A program made the translations under genes and the position numbers. Below are positions 7,908 through 36,928 of a stretch of 64,000 nt of DNA, in pieces. Where the stretch lies: NCBI RefSeq assembly GCF_039645995.1, contig NZ_CP147920.1, positions 1,736,001 through 1,800,000 on the forward strand, given 5' to 3'. Each line of letters starts with the position of its first letter. Position 1 is the stretch's first letter. Origin of the DNA: Sulfurimonas sp. HSL3-1 (GTDB lineage: Bacteria > Campylobacterota > Campylobacteria > Campylobacterales > Sulfurimonadaceae). A model generated the notes under the pieces. The model made no database searches. It was not told the DNA's origin and saw only the letters and a program-made list of their open reading frames with translations.

Positions 7908-8930
7908 ATGGAGATTACATCTTTAACACTTCTGAACTGGCTCGGCATCGTCTTCTGCATCACGCAGTCGGCGATGTTCTCCGGGCTCAACCTCGCTTTT
8001 TTCAGCATCAGCAAAATGCGGCTGCACATCGATATGTCCAAAGGCGATGCTGCCGCGGCGAAGGTCTACGCCATGCGCGAAGACCCGAACTTTCTGCTGA
8101 CGACGATCCTCTGGGGCAATGTCGGCATCAACGTTCTGTTGACCCTGCTCTCCAACTCCGTCATGGCCGGCGTCATCGCCTTCGTCTTCTCGACCTTCGT
8201 CATCACCCTCTTCGGCGAGATCATCCCCCAGGCCTATTTCTCCCGCAACGCCCTTAAAATGGCCTCCACGCTGGCCCCGCTGCTGCGTTTTTACCAACTG
8301 CTGCTCTGGCCGTTGGCCAAACCCTCGGCCAAGATGCTCGACCTTTGGTTGGGAAAGGAGGCCGTACAGTTCCTGCGCGAAAACGAGATCGAGGAGATGC
8401 TCAAACTTCATATCCAGGAACGCGATTCGGATATCACGCGGACCGAAGGGGTCGGCGCGCTGAATTTCCTCGCCATGGACGACCTCAAAGTCGGCGAAGA
8501 GGGCGAACCCATCGAACCGCTGAGCATCATTCCCCTCAAGTTCGAGGGCAGCGTGCCGCAGTTCCCCGAGATTGCCTCCTCTTCCAAGGACCCCTTCTTG
8601 CGCCGGGTGCAGAGGCCCCACAAGTCCTGGATCATCCTGACCGACATGCGCGACAACCCCCGCCTGGTCATGGACGCCGACGGCTTTATCAACGCCGCCC
8701 TCTTTGAATTCGACACCTTCGACCCCATGGAGCACTGCCACCGCCCGACGATCATCACCAATATGGAAACGACGCTCGGTTACATTCTACCGGGCCTGCA
8801 GGTCGATCCGGAGCATATGGAAGACGACGTTATCGACCAGGACATTATCCTTGTCTGGGGAGCCGAACGGCGCATTATCACCGGGGCGGACATTCTCGGG
8901 CGGCTGCTGCGGGGCATCGTGGCAAAATAA
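7908..8930 (+). CDS. CNNM/DUF21-domain membrane protein (CorC/HlyC-like)
   Basis: The first 150 residues form the DUF21 (CNNM) transmembrane domain: four hydrophobic stretches with SAMFSGLNLAFFSISKMRL, GNVGINVLLTLLSN and the conserved FGEIIPQAYFSRNA. Members take part in Mg2+/Co2+ homeostasis. The following region is acidic and has no clear CBS pair or CorC_HlyC tail, so this is a shortened or divergent member. It is convergent with the LpxR-like gene, 13 bp apart. Confidence 0.85.
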   Translation: MEITSLTLLNWLGIVFCITQSAMFSGLNLAFFSISKMRLHIDMSKGDAAAAKVYAMREDPNFLLTTILWGNVGINVLLTLLSNSVMAGVIAFVFSTFVITLFGEIIPQAYFSRNALKMASTLAPLLRFYQLLLWPLAKPSAKMLDLWLGKEAVQFLRENEIEEMLKLHIQERDSDITRTEGVGALNFLAMDDLKVGEEGEPIEPLSIIPLKFEGSVPQFPEIASSSKDPFLRRVQRPHKSWIILTDMRDNPRLVMDADGFINAALFEFDTFDPMEHCHRPTIITNMETTLGYILPGLQVDPEHMEDDVIDQDIILVWGAERRIITGADILGRLLRGIVAK

Positions 8931-29647: not shown

Positions 29648-30520
29648 ATGCAGAACCTTGTAACCATTTACGAAGAGAATGCCGACCTGATCCAGAAGTT
29701 CATCCTTGCGTCCATCCAACGGATCGGACTCATCCATCTGACGGAAAAGAACGTCAAGCACATTTTTTCCGTCTTCCCGAGCCTGGAGCTGGCCTATGAG
29801 ACCGACGAAGGGTTCGCCCAGACCTCCGCCAACCACAGCCGCCACAAGAAGGATTCGGCAGCCGTCGGCGCGGACCGGAGCTACCTCATCGACGAGAGTA
29901 AACTCTCGGGCGACTACTATTTCCATGAACCCTACCTCTCCACGACGACGGGGCACCTGTGTATCACCGTCGTCTACAAGACGGCCAAAGGGGGCTATAT
30001 CCTGCTGGACTTCCAGCTGCGCAACCTCCTTGAACGTTTCATGCTGATCGAGAATAACGGCGCCCTCAAGCTGACCCACCGTACCCTCTACGGCATTATC
30101 GGCGGGGGGCTGCTGCTGCTGGGGATCTTTGTCGTCCTCTACGGACTTTTCAGTTTCGGCCACTACCTCATCGTCGAAGATGTGCTTTCGCTGGAGATGT
30201 TTTTCAAACCCGTCATCGCCCTCACTCTGGGACTGGCCGTTTATGACCTGGGAAAAACGATCGTCGACCAGGAGGTAATGCCCAAAACGCAGAAAGTCCA
30301 TGAGGGGATCAAAGTGAAGACCCTGCTCAACTTCTCCGTCTCAATCATCATCGCCCTGATGATCGAGGCGCTGCTGGTCGTTTTCAAGATCTCCATCTCC
30401 AACTACCACGACCTTCCCTACGCTGCCTCGCTGATCGGCGCGCTCGCCCTGCTCTTCTTTGTGTTCTCCTACTTCATCTACATCGTCAGAAAGAGCGGGA
30501 CTGCCCCTGAGATCGAATAG
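29648..30520 (+). CDS. Membrane protein with PDC/Cache-like N-terminal domain
   Basis: Residues 1-135 look like a PDC-type sensor fold (EPYLSTTTGHLCITVVYKTA, GGYILLDFQLRNLLERF). They are followed by four hydrophobic segments (about 145-170, 185-205, 228-250, 262-285) and a short charged tail. No kinase, cyclase or methyl-accepting domain follows, so the output is unclear. RBS AAGGAG precedes ATG 29648. The gene runs toward the oxidoreductase pair. Confidence 0.6.
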   Translation: MQNLVTIYEENADLIQKFILASIQRIGLIHLTEKNVKHIFSVFPSLELAYETDEGFAQTSANHSRHKKDSAAVGADRSYLIDESKLSGDYYFHEPYLSTTTGHLCITVVYKTAKGGYILLDFQLRNLLERFMLIENNGALKLTHRTLYGIIGGGLLLLGIFVVLYGLFSFGHYLIVEDVLSLEMFFKPVIALTLGLAVYDLGKTIVDQEVMPKTQKVHEGIKVKTLLNFSVSIIIALMIEALLVVFKISISNYHDLPYAASLIGALALLFFVFSYFIYIVRKSGTAPEIE

Positions 30521-30523
30521 ACC

Positions 30524-31366
30524 TCAATAGGCATCGAAGAGCGTCTGAATGAGCGCGGCATCGTGGGTCGCGAGCGAGAGCGGACGCCGCTGGCCGTGGC
30601 GGACCCGTTCGTCGAACGTATCGCTCTCAAGGCGGTAGAAGACGCCAAGCGGGAACGGCCCGCTCTCCATCGCCCGCGCCATCGCCGCACCGAGATCGGC
30701 CGTGTCGTGGGAGGCGTCCAGTTCGTAGGTATGCTCCCCGAACCAGCCGAAGGTGTTGATTTTATTGAAGGTCACACAGGGCTGGAAAATGTCGACCAGG
30801 GCATAGCCGCGGTGCAGAAAAGCGGCTTTGAGCACCTGCTTGGCGTGTACGGGGTTGCCGATATTGACCCGGGAGACGAACCCCGCCCGCAGCGCCAGCG
30901 CCACGGCGAGAGGGTTGAAGGGCTCGTTGCCGACCCCGTCGACCTGCACCTTCGTTTCCATCCCCTTTTGGCTCGTCGGCGACGCCTGCCCCTTGGTCAG
31001 CCCGTAGATCATATTGTTGTGGACGATATGAACGATGTCGACGTTGCGGCGGACGGCATGCAGGAAGTGGTTGCCCCCCTCCCCGTACATATCGCCGTCT
31101 CCCCCCTCGGCCACGACGGTCAGTTCGGGGTTGGCCGCCTTGACCGCCGTCGCGACGGGAACGGCGCGCCCGTGCAGTACCCCGAACATATTGACGTCAA
31201 CGTAATAGGGCGTCTTCGCCGCCTGGCCGATGCCCGAAACGATGACCACGCTGCGGCCGTCGGCTTTCAACTCGTCGAGCACCTCGCGGATCAGGGTCAG
31301 GATGCCAAAATTCCCGCATCCCGGACACCAGCCGATATCTGTATTTTCACGTTCAAACGGTTTCAT
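30524..31366 (-). CDS. 2-oxoacid:acceptor oxidoreductase beta subunit (KorB-like, TPP-binding)
   Basis: Binds thiamine pyrophosphate and Mg2+ and joins the alpha/gamma chain to oxidise (or form) a 2-oxoacid via CoA. Visible: WCPGCGNFGIL (C14, C17), TPP motif GGDGDMYGEGGNHF, NNMIYGLTKGQASPTS, and DIFQPCVTFN with the distal cysteine. The usual third cluster cysteine, in SGIGC, is replaced: here it reads SGIGQAAK (Gln48). I recall KorB-like relatives with the same GIGQA, so this may mark a subfamily. ATG 31366 overlaps the alpha stop as ATGA; longer frames upstream are shadows of alpha. Confidence 0.92.
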   Translation of the reverse strand: MKPFERENTDIGWCPGCGNFGILTLIREVLDELKADGRSVVIVSGIGQAAKTPYYVDVNMFGVLHGRAVPVATAVKAANPELTVVAEGGDGDMYGEGGNHFLHAVRRNVDIVHIVHNNMIYGLTKGQASPTSQKGMETKVQVDGVGNEPFNPLAVALALRAGFVSRVNIGNPVHAKQVLKAAFLHRGYALVDIFQPCVTFNKINTFGWFGEHTYELDASHDTADLGAAMARAMESGPFPLGVFYRLESDTFDERVRHGQRRPLSLATHDAALIQTLFDAY

Positions 31367-33930
31367 GCGCGCTCCTTTATGACGGCGGCGAGTTCCTGCG
31401 CCAGCTGGTCGGCAAAATAGGCGAAACCGTTGCTCTGCAAGATACGCCGGTCGACCCTGACACCGTGCAGCGCCAGCTGCTCCGCAAAGGCGCCGTCGGC
31501 GTTGTTCTCGACGACGATGCGGTAGTCGTAGGTCTGCAGGAAGGCGAGCTGTTCGGGATTGAGCGGATGCACCCAGGCAAAATGAACCTGGCAGGTCCGG
31601 TCGTCTCCCAGACGTGCCAGGGCCTCGGCAATCGCACCGCGGCTCGAGCCCCAACCGATCACCGCGATGCTCCCTGTGCCGCGCACCTCCGGCGGCCACA
31701 CCTCGGCCACGATCCCTTCGGCCTTTCGGGCCCGCTTGGCGACCATCGCCTCTCGGACGCGGAAATCCTCGGTGATCTGCCCCCTTGCGTCGTGTTCGTG
31801 CCCGTCACTGCAGACCAGCCCCTCGCCGCCGCCCGGCACGGCCCGGGGGCTGATGCCCGAGGGGGTGTCGGCGTAGCGGTTGTACGTTTCGGATGCGGGT
31901 GCAATGTAACGGCGCTGTTCGAAGGCAGCGAAATCGACGTCGCCGGTCATCGCCATCGTATCGGCCAGGTACTGGTCGCTGAGCACGATGACGGGCAGCT
32001 GCCACCGGTCGGCCAGTTCAAAGGCGAGATGGCCCAGTTCGACGCATTCGTGCAGCGAACCCGGGGCGAGAATAATCCGCGGGAAGGGGCCGTGCCCCGA
32101 GTGCAGCGCGAGGTTCAGATCGCCCTGTTCACTGCGGGTCGGCAATCCCGTCGCCGGGCCGGGCCGCTGCGCCAGGTAGACGACGGCGGGGGTCTCCGTG
32201 ATGCCCGAGAGGCTTATGCCCTCTCCCATCAGCGCGAACCCGCCGCCCGATGTCGTCGTCAGTGCCCGTGCACCGGCGTACCACGCCCCCATCACAAGGT
32301 GGATCGAGGCGATCTCGTCCTCGCTCTGCTCCACGGCGATCTCGAAACGCTTGGACATCCCCGCCATAAAGTTCAGGACTCCCGTGGAGGGGGACATCGG
32401 ATAGGAGGCGACGAAGTTGCACCCCCCGGCAAGGAAACCGAAACCGCAGGCGGTCGTGCCGTCCATCAGGTGCAAGACGGCGGCCCCTTCGGGATGGGAG
32501 TAAGGCAACGGCGGCAGCGGGGGGTGCTGAAGAGTACGGCCCGCATCGGCCCCGGCCTCCGCCGCAAGAACATTCCCCTCGTCCCGCGCGAAACGCGCCT
32601 GCACGCTGGCTTTCAATGCATCCGTTTCAAGGCCCAGCATCCCGTAGACCAGCCCGGCGGCATAGGTGTTGGCGTAGCGCGGATCGCCCAGCCGCTGCGC
32701 CTCGCGCTGCATCGCAACGGCAATCGCGCCGGGCGCCTCCGCCGAAAAACGCTCGTCGGTCAGTACGACCGTCTGCGCGCTAAGGCGCGGCGCCGCGTGG
32801 GTCAGGGCCAAGGCGTCAAGCGCAATGAAGAGGTCCACTTCCCAGCAGGGTGCCTCCAGCGGGGTATCGGCAATGCGGATAAGCGTCGTATTGCTCCCCC
32901 CGCGTACCCGGGACATGAACTCCTTACTCGAATAGACGTAGTAGCCGCTGCGGACAAAGGCGTCGCTGAGCACCTTTTCCAGGGTGTCGATCCCCATGCC
33001 CGCTGCCCCGCCGATCAAAATGGAGAGGCTCTGCCCCGTTGCGGGCGGGGTTGAAGACGCCGGCATATGCCGCTGCAAGGGCGGCATAAAAGGGTCGGCG
33101 GCGAAAGGGACCTCATACCGACCGGCCGAAGGCAGCTTCGCCCCCGTCTGCGGCGAAGGCACGGATGCCGCCGCGGCAGTGGACACGGGCGCCTCTTTCG
33201 CCTGGGGATAGGGCATGCTCTCGCCCCAGGTGATCTTGCCGCCGTAATAGCCCAGCACGATCACCCCCAGGCCCGTCAAAAGAACGATGGCATGGTAGGT
33301 AATGCCTTCGGCCGACATCGTGTAGACGATGCCCGGGGCTTCGAGATAGAGCATGATCGCGACGATCCCCGCCAGCAGCATCGCCACGGAGAGCACGATC
33401 TTGACGGCAAAGGGACGGCGCCACGTGCCCCCGTAATTGATCCGCCAGCTGATCAGCCCCGGTACCATCGCGACCGCCCCCATGACCGTCGCTGCCAGGA
33501 AAGTATAAAAGACGGCGGCGGCATAGAGTGCCGTCGGCACGGCGAAAAAGAGCAGGTCCATCAACGCTGAAAAGAGGTGCAGCGCGATGGGAAAGTGGAC
33601 GGTCATCGGGTGGGGGTGGTAACGGCGATAGAGCGCCTGCCAACGGCGGCGGCGCTCCTTGTTCGCATCCGGAGGCGGTGCATCGGCCCGGGCCTTCAGC
33701 TCCGGCTCCGCATCCAGCGTGCCAATGACGCTGTAGCGTTCAAACACCTCATCGCCGTGCGGCGCACCCTCAAGCATGGGCGTGAGATCGCGCCCCGCCT
33801 GATGCATCCCCTGGTGGTTCCCCTCCGCCCACATCGGGCTCTCCGACACGTCGTAGATCTTCCCTTTGTAGGCAACATAGGCGGGTCTTCCGTCGCGGCC
33901 GTCGTAGGCCGCAAGTTCACGCGGTGTCAT
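31363..33930 (-). CDS. Cytochrome b5-like + DUF2231-like membrane domain fused to 2-oxoacid oxidoreductase gamma/alpha chain
   Basis: 855 residues in one uninterrupted frame. Residues 1-75: cytochrome b5-like heme domain (YVAYKGKIYDVSES, H39 and H43 in GNHQGMHQAGRDLT, H58 in APHG). Residues 105-235: HPHPMTVHFPIALHLF and about four TM helices, as in DUF2231. Residues 238-300: Pro/Ala-rich linker. Residues 302-470: gamma domain (GGAAGMGIDTLEKVLSDAF, SRVRGGSNTT). Residues 485-855: alpha domain with YPMSPSTG and EQSEDEIAS. No ferredoxin subunit gene lies nearby. The design suggests a membrane-tethered enzyme passing electrons to heme and perhaps quinone; this is inference. Confidence 0.9.
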   Translation of the reverse strand: MTPRELAAYDGRDGRPAYVAYKGKIYDVSESPMWAEGNHQGMHQAGRDLTPMLEGAPHGDEVFERYSVIGTLDAEPELKARADAPPPDANKERRRRWQALYRRYHPHPMTVHFPIALHLFSALMDLLFFAVPTALYAAAVFYTFLAATVMGAVAMVPGLISWRINYGGTWRRPFAVKIVLSVAMLLAGIVAIMLYLEAPGIVYTMSAEGITYHAIVLLTGLGVIVLGYYGGKITWGESMPYPQAKEAPVSTAAAASVPSPQTGAKLPSAGRYEVPFAADPFMPPLQRHMPASSTPPATGQSLSILIGGAAGMGIDTLEKVLSDAFVRSGYYVYSSKEFMSRVRGGSNTTLIRIADTPLEAPCWEVDLFIALDALALTHAAPRLSAQTVVLTDERFSAEAPGAIAVAMQREAQRLGDPRYANTYAAGLVYGMLGLETDALKASVQARFARDEGNVLAAEAGADAGRTLQHPPLPPLPYSHPEGAAVLHLMDGTTACGFGFLAGGCNFVASYPMSPSTGVLNFMAGMSKRFEIAVEQSEDEIASIHLVMGAWYAGARALTTTSGGGFALMGEGISLSGITETPAVVYLAQRPGPATGLPTRSEQGDLNLALHSGHGPFPRIILAPGSLHECVELGHLAFELADRWQLPVIVLSDQYLADTMAMTGDVDFAAFEQRRYIAPASETYNRYADTPSGISPRAVPGGGEGLVCSDGHEHDARGQITEDFRVREAMVAKRARKAEGIVAEVWPPEVRGTGSIAVIGWGSSRGAIAEALARLGDDRTCQVHFAWVHPLNPEQLAFLQTYDYRIVVENNADGAFAEQLALHGVRVDRRILQSNGFAYFADQLAQELAAVIKERA

Positions 33931-33976
33931 GGCCTCCTCCTTTCGCTTCGCTTTTCGCGGAGGCCGTCACGCCTGC

Positions 33977-34657
33977 TTACGTGGCGGTCGTTTCGTTTGC
34001 CTGCATCGTATCGACATAGTCGCAGACTTCGCTGTCGTCATTGCACGGCTGGCTGTAGCCTGCGATAGGGTCGTTCTCCTCCGCGGCAAGGTTGTCGGAA
34101 ACGAAGCGCCAGTTGATCAGTTTCCACCAGTTTTCCAGGTACTCCGGCCGGGCGTTGCGGCGGTCGATGTAGTAGGCGTGTTCCCAGACATCGCAGACCA
34201 GCAGCGGCCGGCGACCGTAGCGTACGGGCGTGTCCGCGTTGGAGGTCGTTTCAATCACGAGGGTATTATCATTCCTGAGAATAAGCCAGGTCCACCCCGA
34301 CCCGAACAGCCCGGCCGCCGCGGCGAGGAAGGCCTCTTTGAACCCTTCCATGGAGCCGAAGTCGCGCTCGATCATCTCGGAGAGCTCCGCCGACGGCTCC
34401 GTGCTCCCGGAGGAGAGGCCCAGCCAGTAGAAGTCGTGGTTGAAGACCTGCGCAGCGTTATTGAAGGTTGCACCTTCAGCCTCGCGGATGATCTTGAGCA
34501 GCGGGACATGTGCGAAGACCGTCGCGTTGATCAGCGTGTTGAGTTTTGCGACATAGCCGGCATGGTGTTTCCCGTAATGGAACGACACCGTTTCGGCAGA
34601 GATATAGGGTTCCAGCGCCGTCTCTTCGTACGGCAGCTTCATCAGTTCAAATGCCAT
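33977..34657 (-). CDS. sodB: Iron superoxide dismutase
   Basis: Metal ligands are visible in FHYGKHHAGYV, VFNHDFYW and DVWEHAYYID. Gln in NNAAQVFNHDF is typical of the Fe form. Core 200 residues are normal; the C-terminus is extended by about 20 residues with two cysteines (QPCNDDSEVCDY). It lies behind the oxidoreductase pair on the same strand, and protection of an oxygen-sensitive enzyme is a reasonable but unproved link. Confidence 0.95.
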   Translation of the reverse strand: MAFELMKLPYEETALEPYISAETVSFHYGKHHAGYVAKLNTLINATVFAHVPLLKIIREAEGATFNNAAQVFNHDFYWLGLSSGSTEPSAELSEMIERDFGSMEGFKEAFLAAAAGLFGSGWTWLILRNDNTLVIETTSNADTPVRYGRRPLLVCDVWEHAYYIDRRNARPEYLENWWKLINWRFVSDNLAAEENDPIAGYSQPCNDDSEVCDYVDTMQANETTAT

Positions 34658-35722: not shown

Positions 35723-36928
35723 ATGCAGCAAGAGCACATTGTCATTCTCGGCGGCGGTTACGGCGGCTTGCGGGCCGTCGAACATCTCGCCGGCGACCCG
35801 CGCTTTCGCATCACGCTGATCGACCGCCACCCCTACCACTACCTGCAGACCGAAGCCTACGGCTACATCGCCGGGCGCTTCGACATCCACGACATCACGA
35901 TAGACCTTGCGAACTGGTGCCGGGGCTTCGGCCGGCATGTCGCTTTCAAGCAGGCGGAAATCACCGGCGTCGACCCGGAGGCGAAGGAAGTCGTTTTGGA
36001 ACATGAACGCATCCCCTATGACAGCCTTATCGTCGCCACCGGGGCACGCACGAACTTCTTCGCGTTTATCAAGGGCCTGCGCGAAAACAGCTACGGGGTC
36101 AAGAACCTCCAGCGCGCCTTCGCCTTCCGCCAGACCTTCGAACAGCTCGTCTACACCAAGGTCGAAGAGACCCGCGACCCAGAGCCGGCCGAGCTGCAGA
36201 TCGCCATCGGCGGGGCGGGGCTCAGCGGCGTCGAGATCGCCGCGGAAATGGCCGACGTCATCGAAAAACACCACAAGACCCTCGGTACCAATGCGAAGAA
36301 GATCAGGATCACCCTCATCGACGCGGCCGACACGATCCTGCCGGGGATGAGCAGCTATATTGTCAACCGTACGGCAAAGCGCCTGGAATCGCTGGGAATC
36401 CGGATCCTGACCAACGCCTTTATCGACCGGGTCGAGGATGGCGCCATCCACCTCAAAGACGGCACGGCCCTCTCCTACCGTTTTATGATCTTCACCGGGG
36501 GGATCATCGCCAATACGCTGCAGAGCGACGTGCCCCTTGAGACAAACCGGCTGGGCCAGATCGTTCCCGATGCCTATTTGCGCCTCTCCCCCCACATGAA
36601 TGTCTACGCGGTCGGCGACTGCGTCGAACTCAAAGACGCGAAAGGCAACCTTCTCCCGCCGACGGCCCAGACGGCAGAAAAGAGCGCTGAGTACGTCGCC
36701 GCCTCCATCCGCAAACGCCTGAACGGCGACCCTGTTTCCCCATTCCACGCCAAGGTCGACGGCGTCTTTGTCGCCCTGGGCGGCCGCTACGCGGTCGGCG
36801 AGCTCTTCGGCATCATCCGCGTCAGCGGCTACACGGCCTACCTGCTGAAAAAACTGATCACCAAGGGGTACTACCTCGGGCTCAAACTGCGCATCAACAC
36901 CGGCTTCAAAAAACGCACAGAGGCCTGA
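35723..36928 (+). CDS. NAD(P)H:quinone-type FAD oxidoreductase (NDH-2-like)
   Basis: Two dinucleotide folds: FAD-binding ILGGGYGGLRAVEHL at the N-terminus and NAD-binding GGAGLSGVEIAAEM near residue 160. The FAD-closing motif VYAVGDCVEL follows, then PPTAQTAEKSAEY. The C-terminal 60 residues (GYTAYLLKKLITKGYYL) may be a membrane-binding helix, as in NDH-2. It would pass electrons from NAD(P)H to quinone. RBS AAAGGA and tight spacing couple it to the EamA gene. Confidence 0.88.
   Translation: MQQEHIVILGGGYGGLRAVEHLAGDPRFRITLIDRHPYHYLQTEAYGYIAGRFDIHDITIDLANWCRGFGRHVAFKQAEITGVDPEAKEVVLEHERIPYDSLIVATGARTNFFAFIKGLRENSYGVKNLQRAFAFRQTFEQLVYTKVEETRDPEPAELQIAIGGAGLSGVEIAAEMADVIEKHHKTLGTNAKKIRITLIDAADTILPGMSSYIVNRTAKRLESLGIRILTNAFIDRVEDGAIHLKDGTALSYRFMIFTGGIIANTLQSDVPLETNRLGQIVPDAYLRLSPHMNVYAVGDCVELKDAKGNLLPPTAQTAEKSAEYVAASIRKRLNGDPVSPFHAKVDGVFVALGGRYAVGELFGIIRVSGYTAYLLKKLITKGYYLGLKLRINTGFKKRTEA

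Follow-up and report, generated by a model that had tools for sequence, protein, structure and literature searches.

The locus described here raises the question of why a 2-oxoacid oxidoreductase would be joined to a membrane protein with a heme-type domain, and where its electrons would go. OFORs are the textbook ferredoxin enzymes; they are normally soluble and work near -500 mV, and relatives of these bacteria run ferredoxin-linked OFORs in reverse, fixing CO2. In the window, by which we mean the whole stretch of 64,000 nucleotides of Sulfurimonas sp. HSL3-1 that was analysed, a single gene combines a cytochrome b5-like domain, a DUF2231 membrane domain and the gamma and alpha chains of an OFOR. 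The component families are known, and their combination is new to the literature searched. The initial annotation knew of no described enzyme with this layout, and our search of the open-access literature agreed with it. No earlier description of the fusion was found in that literature, a scope outside which most subscription journals fall. DUF2231 and cytochrome b5 were not found together there either, and DUF2231 itself appeared only in one database paper.

Our preferred answer, to which we give a probability of roughly 45%, is that the locus encodes a membrane-bound 2-oxoacid:acceptor oxidoreductase. The cytosolic b5 domain would replace ferredoxin and would hand electrons to menaquinone by way of the membrane domain. 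The evidence for this reading, and for three other explanations, is given below.

The fusion gene lies at 31363..33930 on the minus strand and forms an 855-codon frame without an internal stop. A strong ribosome-binding site, AGGAGGAGG (33933..33941, minus strand), precedes the ATG by a few bases. The product consists of a cytochrome b5-like heme-binding domain (residues 2-74; 33709..33927), a DUF2231 membrane domain (residues 105-236; 33223..33618), a variable linker rich in Pro, Ala and Ser (residues 237-300; 33031..33222), an OFOR gamma domain (residues ~302-466; 32533..33027) and an OFOR alpha domain made of POR_N and a C-terminal domain (residues ~487-846; 31393..32472), all read from the minus strand. 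A domain search of the 855-aa product returned four Pfam families above their gathering scores: Cyt-b5 (PF00173; residues 2-72, 3.9e-6, 27.2 bits against a cut-off of 23.7), DUF2231 (PF09990; residues 107-235, 6.5e-9, 36.4 bits against 26.4), POR (PF01558; residues 311-461, 2.1e-24) and POR_N (PF01855; residues 500-731, 1.5e-47). The NCBIfam model of the gamma-alpha chain, TIGR03710, covered residues 302-846 with model positions 2-560 of 561 (542.9 bits against a cut-off of 482.75). The gamma and alpha chains are therefore complete, as had been claimed, and the frame, the domain order and H39, H43 and H58 were also where the initial annotation had put them.

A frameshift, chimera or assembly artefact was ruled out by the single-contig genome together with many full-length relatives. 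A chimera is unlikely because a single contig of 2.5 Mb makes up the source genome. In a family scan, 12 other genomes had the full-length fusion, at 59-95% identity; the scan also found further fused copies that align in two pieces and one group with the parts as separate neighbouring genes. The survey for the same domain order found the fused form in eight or more genera from two families (g1, g2, g7, g8, g16, g61, g79 and, as a MAG, g14), the second Campylobacterota family being represented by G525, G542 and G545; the fusion is thus far from absent among its relatives. Relatives in public records include a Sulfuricurvum MAG (L004) and a Sulfurimonas MAG (L005). Viral contigs gave no match and plasmids gave b5 domains alone. 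An apparently larger fusion in G542, an open frame of 1185 aa, was rejected as upstream read-through only, the module (the b5 and DUF2231 domains) starting at an internal Met. In G084 (L043, ~8649-8671), a stop near residue 325 breaks the KorGA part (the gamma-alpha chain) of the fusion, which is either a decaying gene or a sequencing error.

Of 397 Campylobacterota genomes scanned, 23 carry this KorGA subfamily, and the module is present in 20, all of them among the 23. Both this restriction of the module to genomes with the Kor subfamily, within the set scanned, and the conservation of the fusion across genera and families favour the respiratory reading.

H39, H43 and H58 in the b5 domain and H105, H107, H112, H118 and H213 in the membrane domain are invariant in 20 aligned copies, and all 20 relatives match both Pfam families. 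In phmmer searches, the b5 part matched PDB 6vz6 (8.8e-24) and 6nzx (1.6e-18); residues 2-74 align with both from end to end and share all three His, the candidate axial heme ligands. 6NZX has been termed a b-type cytochrome (PMC7096707). The earlier description of this region as a heme-binding-like domain therefore stands, and homology to two crystallised b5 domains now supports heme binding by the b5 domain, which would be occupied by heme.

Hydropathy and AF2 concur on four TM helices at about residues 108-130, 134-166, 172-197 and 207-234, the approximate number given before. Arginines precede TM1 and lie between TM2 and TM3, and the opposite loops carry no positive charge. Because of this distribution, both ends of the membrane domain are predicted to face the cytoplasm, so that the b5 domain and the Kor part would both be cytoplasmic. 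The helices and charges support the suggested membrane tethering of a Kor-type enzyme, and the shared side, like the b5 matches to 6nzx and 6vz6, counts in favour of the respiratory reading. An AF2 model of the module, built from three sequences, had four helices with pLDDT mostly ~70-90 and a poor b5 part. When it was compared with the PDB, there was no match at E < 0.001 for this model, which gave helices only. VIA-align returned generic four-helix bundles alone, below the level of kinship, which excludes no family for the membrane domain. The full-protein model had a mean pLDDT of 41 and was set aside; both models are too weak to locate heme or reveal b5 docking.

The catalytic partner, KorB, is a TPP-binding beta subunit of 280 aa encoded at 30524..31366 (minus strand), and its start and the stop of the fusion share 4 nt (ATGA). 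It scored 329.8 bits with TIGR02177 (cut-off 261.9) and also matched TPP_enzyme_C, PRK11869 and the PDB chains 5b46_B, 5b48_B and 6n2n_B. By sequence, the fusion and KorB are a member of the two-subunit OFORs (OAFO_sf, TIGR03710 plus TIGR02177) with one departure. A motif survey showed that in every copy read, from about 29 genomes, the cluster motif SGIGC has become SGIGQ. The other three cluster Cys, in CPGC and QPC, are conserved throughout the copies read. KorB thus lacks the full four-Cys ligand set of the proximal [4Fe-4S] cluster that is seen in characterised two-subunit OFORs. The Cys is retained in OorB of the same genome and in the KorB proteins of Cytobacillus and Natrinema. Since a clostridial relative without the module, from Peptoclostridium, has Gln too, the change probably arose before the fusion. 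The same relative ruled out the Gln as a mark of a heme acceptor. Beside KorB in this genus is a 290-aa protein (window 29648-30520, plus strand) that has TM helices at its C terminus and matches no Pfam family; a counterpart of 30% identity adjoins KorB in G407, a member of another family (L076, 4699-5538).

This substitution makes it less likely that the enzyme works exactly like StOFOR1, and it weakens our mechanism, because CoA-dependent oxidation by StOFOR1 requires four Cys according to the title of a cited study (ref. 27 in PMC5020499). One possible explanation is that the loss of the Cys left a non-oxidative 2-oxoacid decarboxylase and that the role of the heme module is unrelated. The uniform Gln, in contrast to the Cys kept in OorB and in other KorB proteins, fits this explanation, and StOFOR1 needs neither the cluster nor CoA for non-oxidative decarboxylation (PMC5020499). 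We nevertheless regard it as very improbable, as the three Cys conserved throughout suggest that a cluster is still bound and the gamma-alpha chain is complete.

Other features of the catalytic part favour the respiratory reading. In the alignment to 5b46, equivalents of Arg344, Thr349, Lys49b and Leu123b of StOFOR1 are kept in the fusion and KorB. R589 corresponds to Arg344 and is retained in an alpha domain where YPMSP replaces YPITP (T to S). The genome has three further OFOR-type enzymes, namely a 1189-aa NifJ-type enzyme, PorAB and an Oor enzyme. The operon showed no ferredoxin gene or subunit. In two-subunit OFORs, the only cluster is flanked by an open pocket, and ferredoxin has been modelled into it (PMC5020499).

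The history of the locus was examined with a KorGA tree built by a quick method. A clade with separate genes is sister to all others, and ORF analysis showed that in the separate form the module, KorGA and KorB overlap in that order. This unfused but identical gene order favours our mechanism. In the mostly fused remainder of the tree, the genes are separate in one copy (G407), and the module has been lost in G070 and G074, both near-complete genomes that keep KorGA-KorB. G074 has an in-frame deletion scar that joins the first 16 b5 residues to the linker and KorGA; its locus (L042, 8212-9975) is a KorGA minus nearly the whole b5/DUF2231 module. In G070, a superoxide dismutase (SOD) gene is directly upstream of KorGA and the module is absent. 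The module occurs without Kor in two genomes, G163 and G174, and in the latter it sits at apparently the same chromosomal site as the whole operon of G098, with c31, c32 and c33 as shared neighbours. In some lineages, therefore, each half can be retained without the other. Both kinds of loss count against the mechanism we favour, the first because the Kor part may work without the module. Despite these losses, the pairing of module and Kor is strongly kept overall. The altered-cluster KorB, the separate-gene form, the operon SOD and the losses of either half were not part of the initial annotation.

Among close relatives, dN/dS was 0.06-0.09 for the b5 domain, 0.06-0.13 for the membrane domain and 0.09-0.11 for Kor, compared to 0.31-0.55 for the linker. 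Both halves are under purifying selection and the linker is relaxed. These data bear on the main rival to the respiratory reading, in which the module is a membrane anchor only, or a sensor of heme, redox state or O2, and catalysis is ordinary, with electrons passing to soluble ferredoxin. The survival of KorGA-KorB without the module in G070 and G074 is the best evidence for it, and it would also agree with the long, variable linker and with the existence of the SGIGQ Kor subfamily as a soluble enzyme in Peptoclostridium. However, neither eight invariant His nor a module dN/dS of 0.06-0.13 would be required of a simple anchor, and the order of module, KorGA and KorB is preserved even as separate genes. 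We therefore find an anchor or sensor rather doubtful; the invariant His and the contrast in dN/dS between module and linker favour an electron-carrying module instead.

The first gene of the apparent operon encodes an Fe/Mn SOD of 226 aa (33977..34657, minus strand; Pfam Sod_Fe_N and Sod_Fe_C) with a two-Cys C-terminal tail. It lies 46 nt upstream of the fusion start on the same strand. An SOD adjoins the operon in 11 of the 23 sampled genomes with this KorGA; it mostly lies immediately upstream in the same orientation, and sometimes on the opposite strand. A link of the operon to O2 or superoxide is plausible. This could mean that the module and the adjacent SOD form primarily an O2 or superoxide defence unit, which would protect an O2-sensitive OFOR by draining stray electrons to the quinone pool. 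The recurrence of the SOD in more than one arrangement agrees with this, as does the SOD-module pair left without Kor in G163. The operon SOD is also an additional copy, because the genome has two further SODs (C1:1474529 and C1:1626838). However, an adjacent SOD is missing from about half of the operons, and the tailed type is present in Campylobacterota without the operon as well, so we consider a defence unit unlikely. Its presence in such genomes also led us to reject the tailed SOD as a private part of the system.

Two observations on this neighbourhood are added here. The tail CNDDxEVCDYVD is conserved in the operon SODs (window 33977-34657; L004, L035, L037, L039, L040, L044, L046, L047, L049, L051, L052 and L076); the two-Cys tail is absent from the SOD at C1:1474529, and in the SOD at C1:1626838 it has only a short form. 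Near the operon, window 35723-36928 (plus strand) encodes a pyridine nucleotide-disulphide oxidoreductase of 401 aa that may be a type II NADH:quinone oxidoreductase.

The features of the proposed membrane-bound oxidoreductase that are shown here are its architecture and gene order, its conservation, its heme-type homology and, as judged by charge, its cytosolic side. In the mechanism we propose, KorB and the C-terminal half of the fusion would decarboxylate a 2-oxoacid with TPP and CoA, a chemistry presumed from homology to the family, and electrons would exit via KorB's iron-sulfur site. The b5 heme domain, fused and cytosolic, would dock in the ferredoxin pocket beside the KorB cluster and pass electrons to the four-helix DUF2231 domain, which may reduce menaquinone. 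The reaction is predicted to be oxidative and effectively one-way, apart from the ferredoxin-linked Por, Oor and NifJ-type enzymes of the same genome. The exact route, in which ferredoxin is bypassed and electrons run from a TPP radical through an altered three-Cys iron-sulfur site to the b5 heme, DUF2231 and menaquinone, is possible and is offered tentatively.

The recurring pairing of an OFOR with a heme-domain membrane protein in two families suggests that electrons may feed the respiratory chain directly. If true, 2-oxoacids would be connected to the respiratory chain by a new route, in bacteria whose genomes encode ferredoxin-linked OFORs as well. The enzyme would then be the first known respiratory membrane OFOR, and DUF2231 would gain a function. 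The fused, separate, module-less and Kor-less forms provide a natural series for comparison.

Several known systems resemble parts of this locus. Ordinary DUF2231 proteins of Campylobacterota (L106-L131) commonly have the motifs HP..VHF, EHK..G and GG.LVY.YG and often end in long acidic tails. Like the module, such proteins, one of which is encoded in the same genome (G000:C1:749739, 248 aa), match PF09990, with HP..VHF at the start of TM1 and GG near the end, but they have no b5 or Kor domain and have long acidic or coiled C-terminal tails. The b5 domains of 6nzx (Hadesarchaea) and 6vz6 were solved by themselves as soluble 78-residue domains, in constructs without an OFOR. StOFOR1/2 of Sulfolobus tokodaii (PDB 5b46-5b48) and the 6n2n enzyme, which we take to be the Magnetococcus two-subunit OFOR, likewise consist of a gamma-alpha and a beta chain with no ferredoxin domain. 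These enzymes lack the N-terminal b5 and membrane domains added here, and they have YPITP rather than YPMSP and four cluster Cys where one of the four is Gln here. The plasmid Kor of Peptoclostridium acidaminophilum (L087) shares SGIGQ in KorB, has YPMTPST in KorA and is 37.7% identical in KorGA over 99%, but it has no b5/DUF2231 module. Its KorB is broken and split from KorA by a mobile element carrying TnpB (L087, 5995-10600). PoxB, the quinone-linked pyruvate oxidase, would likewise be a TPP enzyme that passes electrons to quinone; it is a flavoprotein that makes acetate, whereas the enzyme described here lacks a flavin domain and has the fold of a CoA-dependent OFOR.
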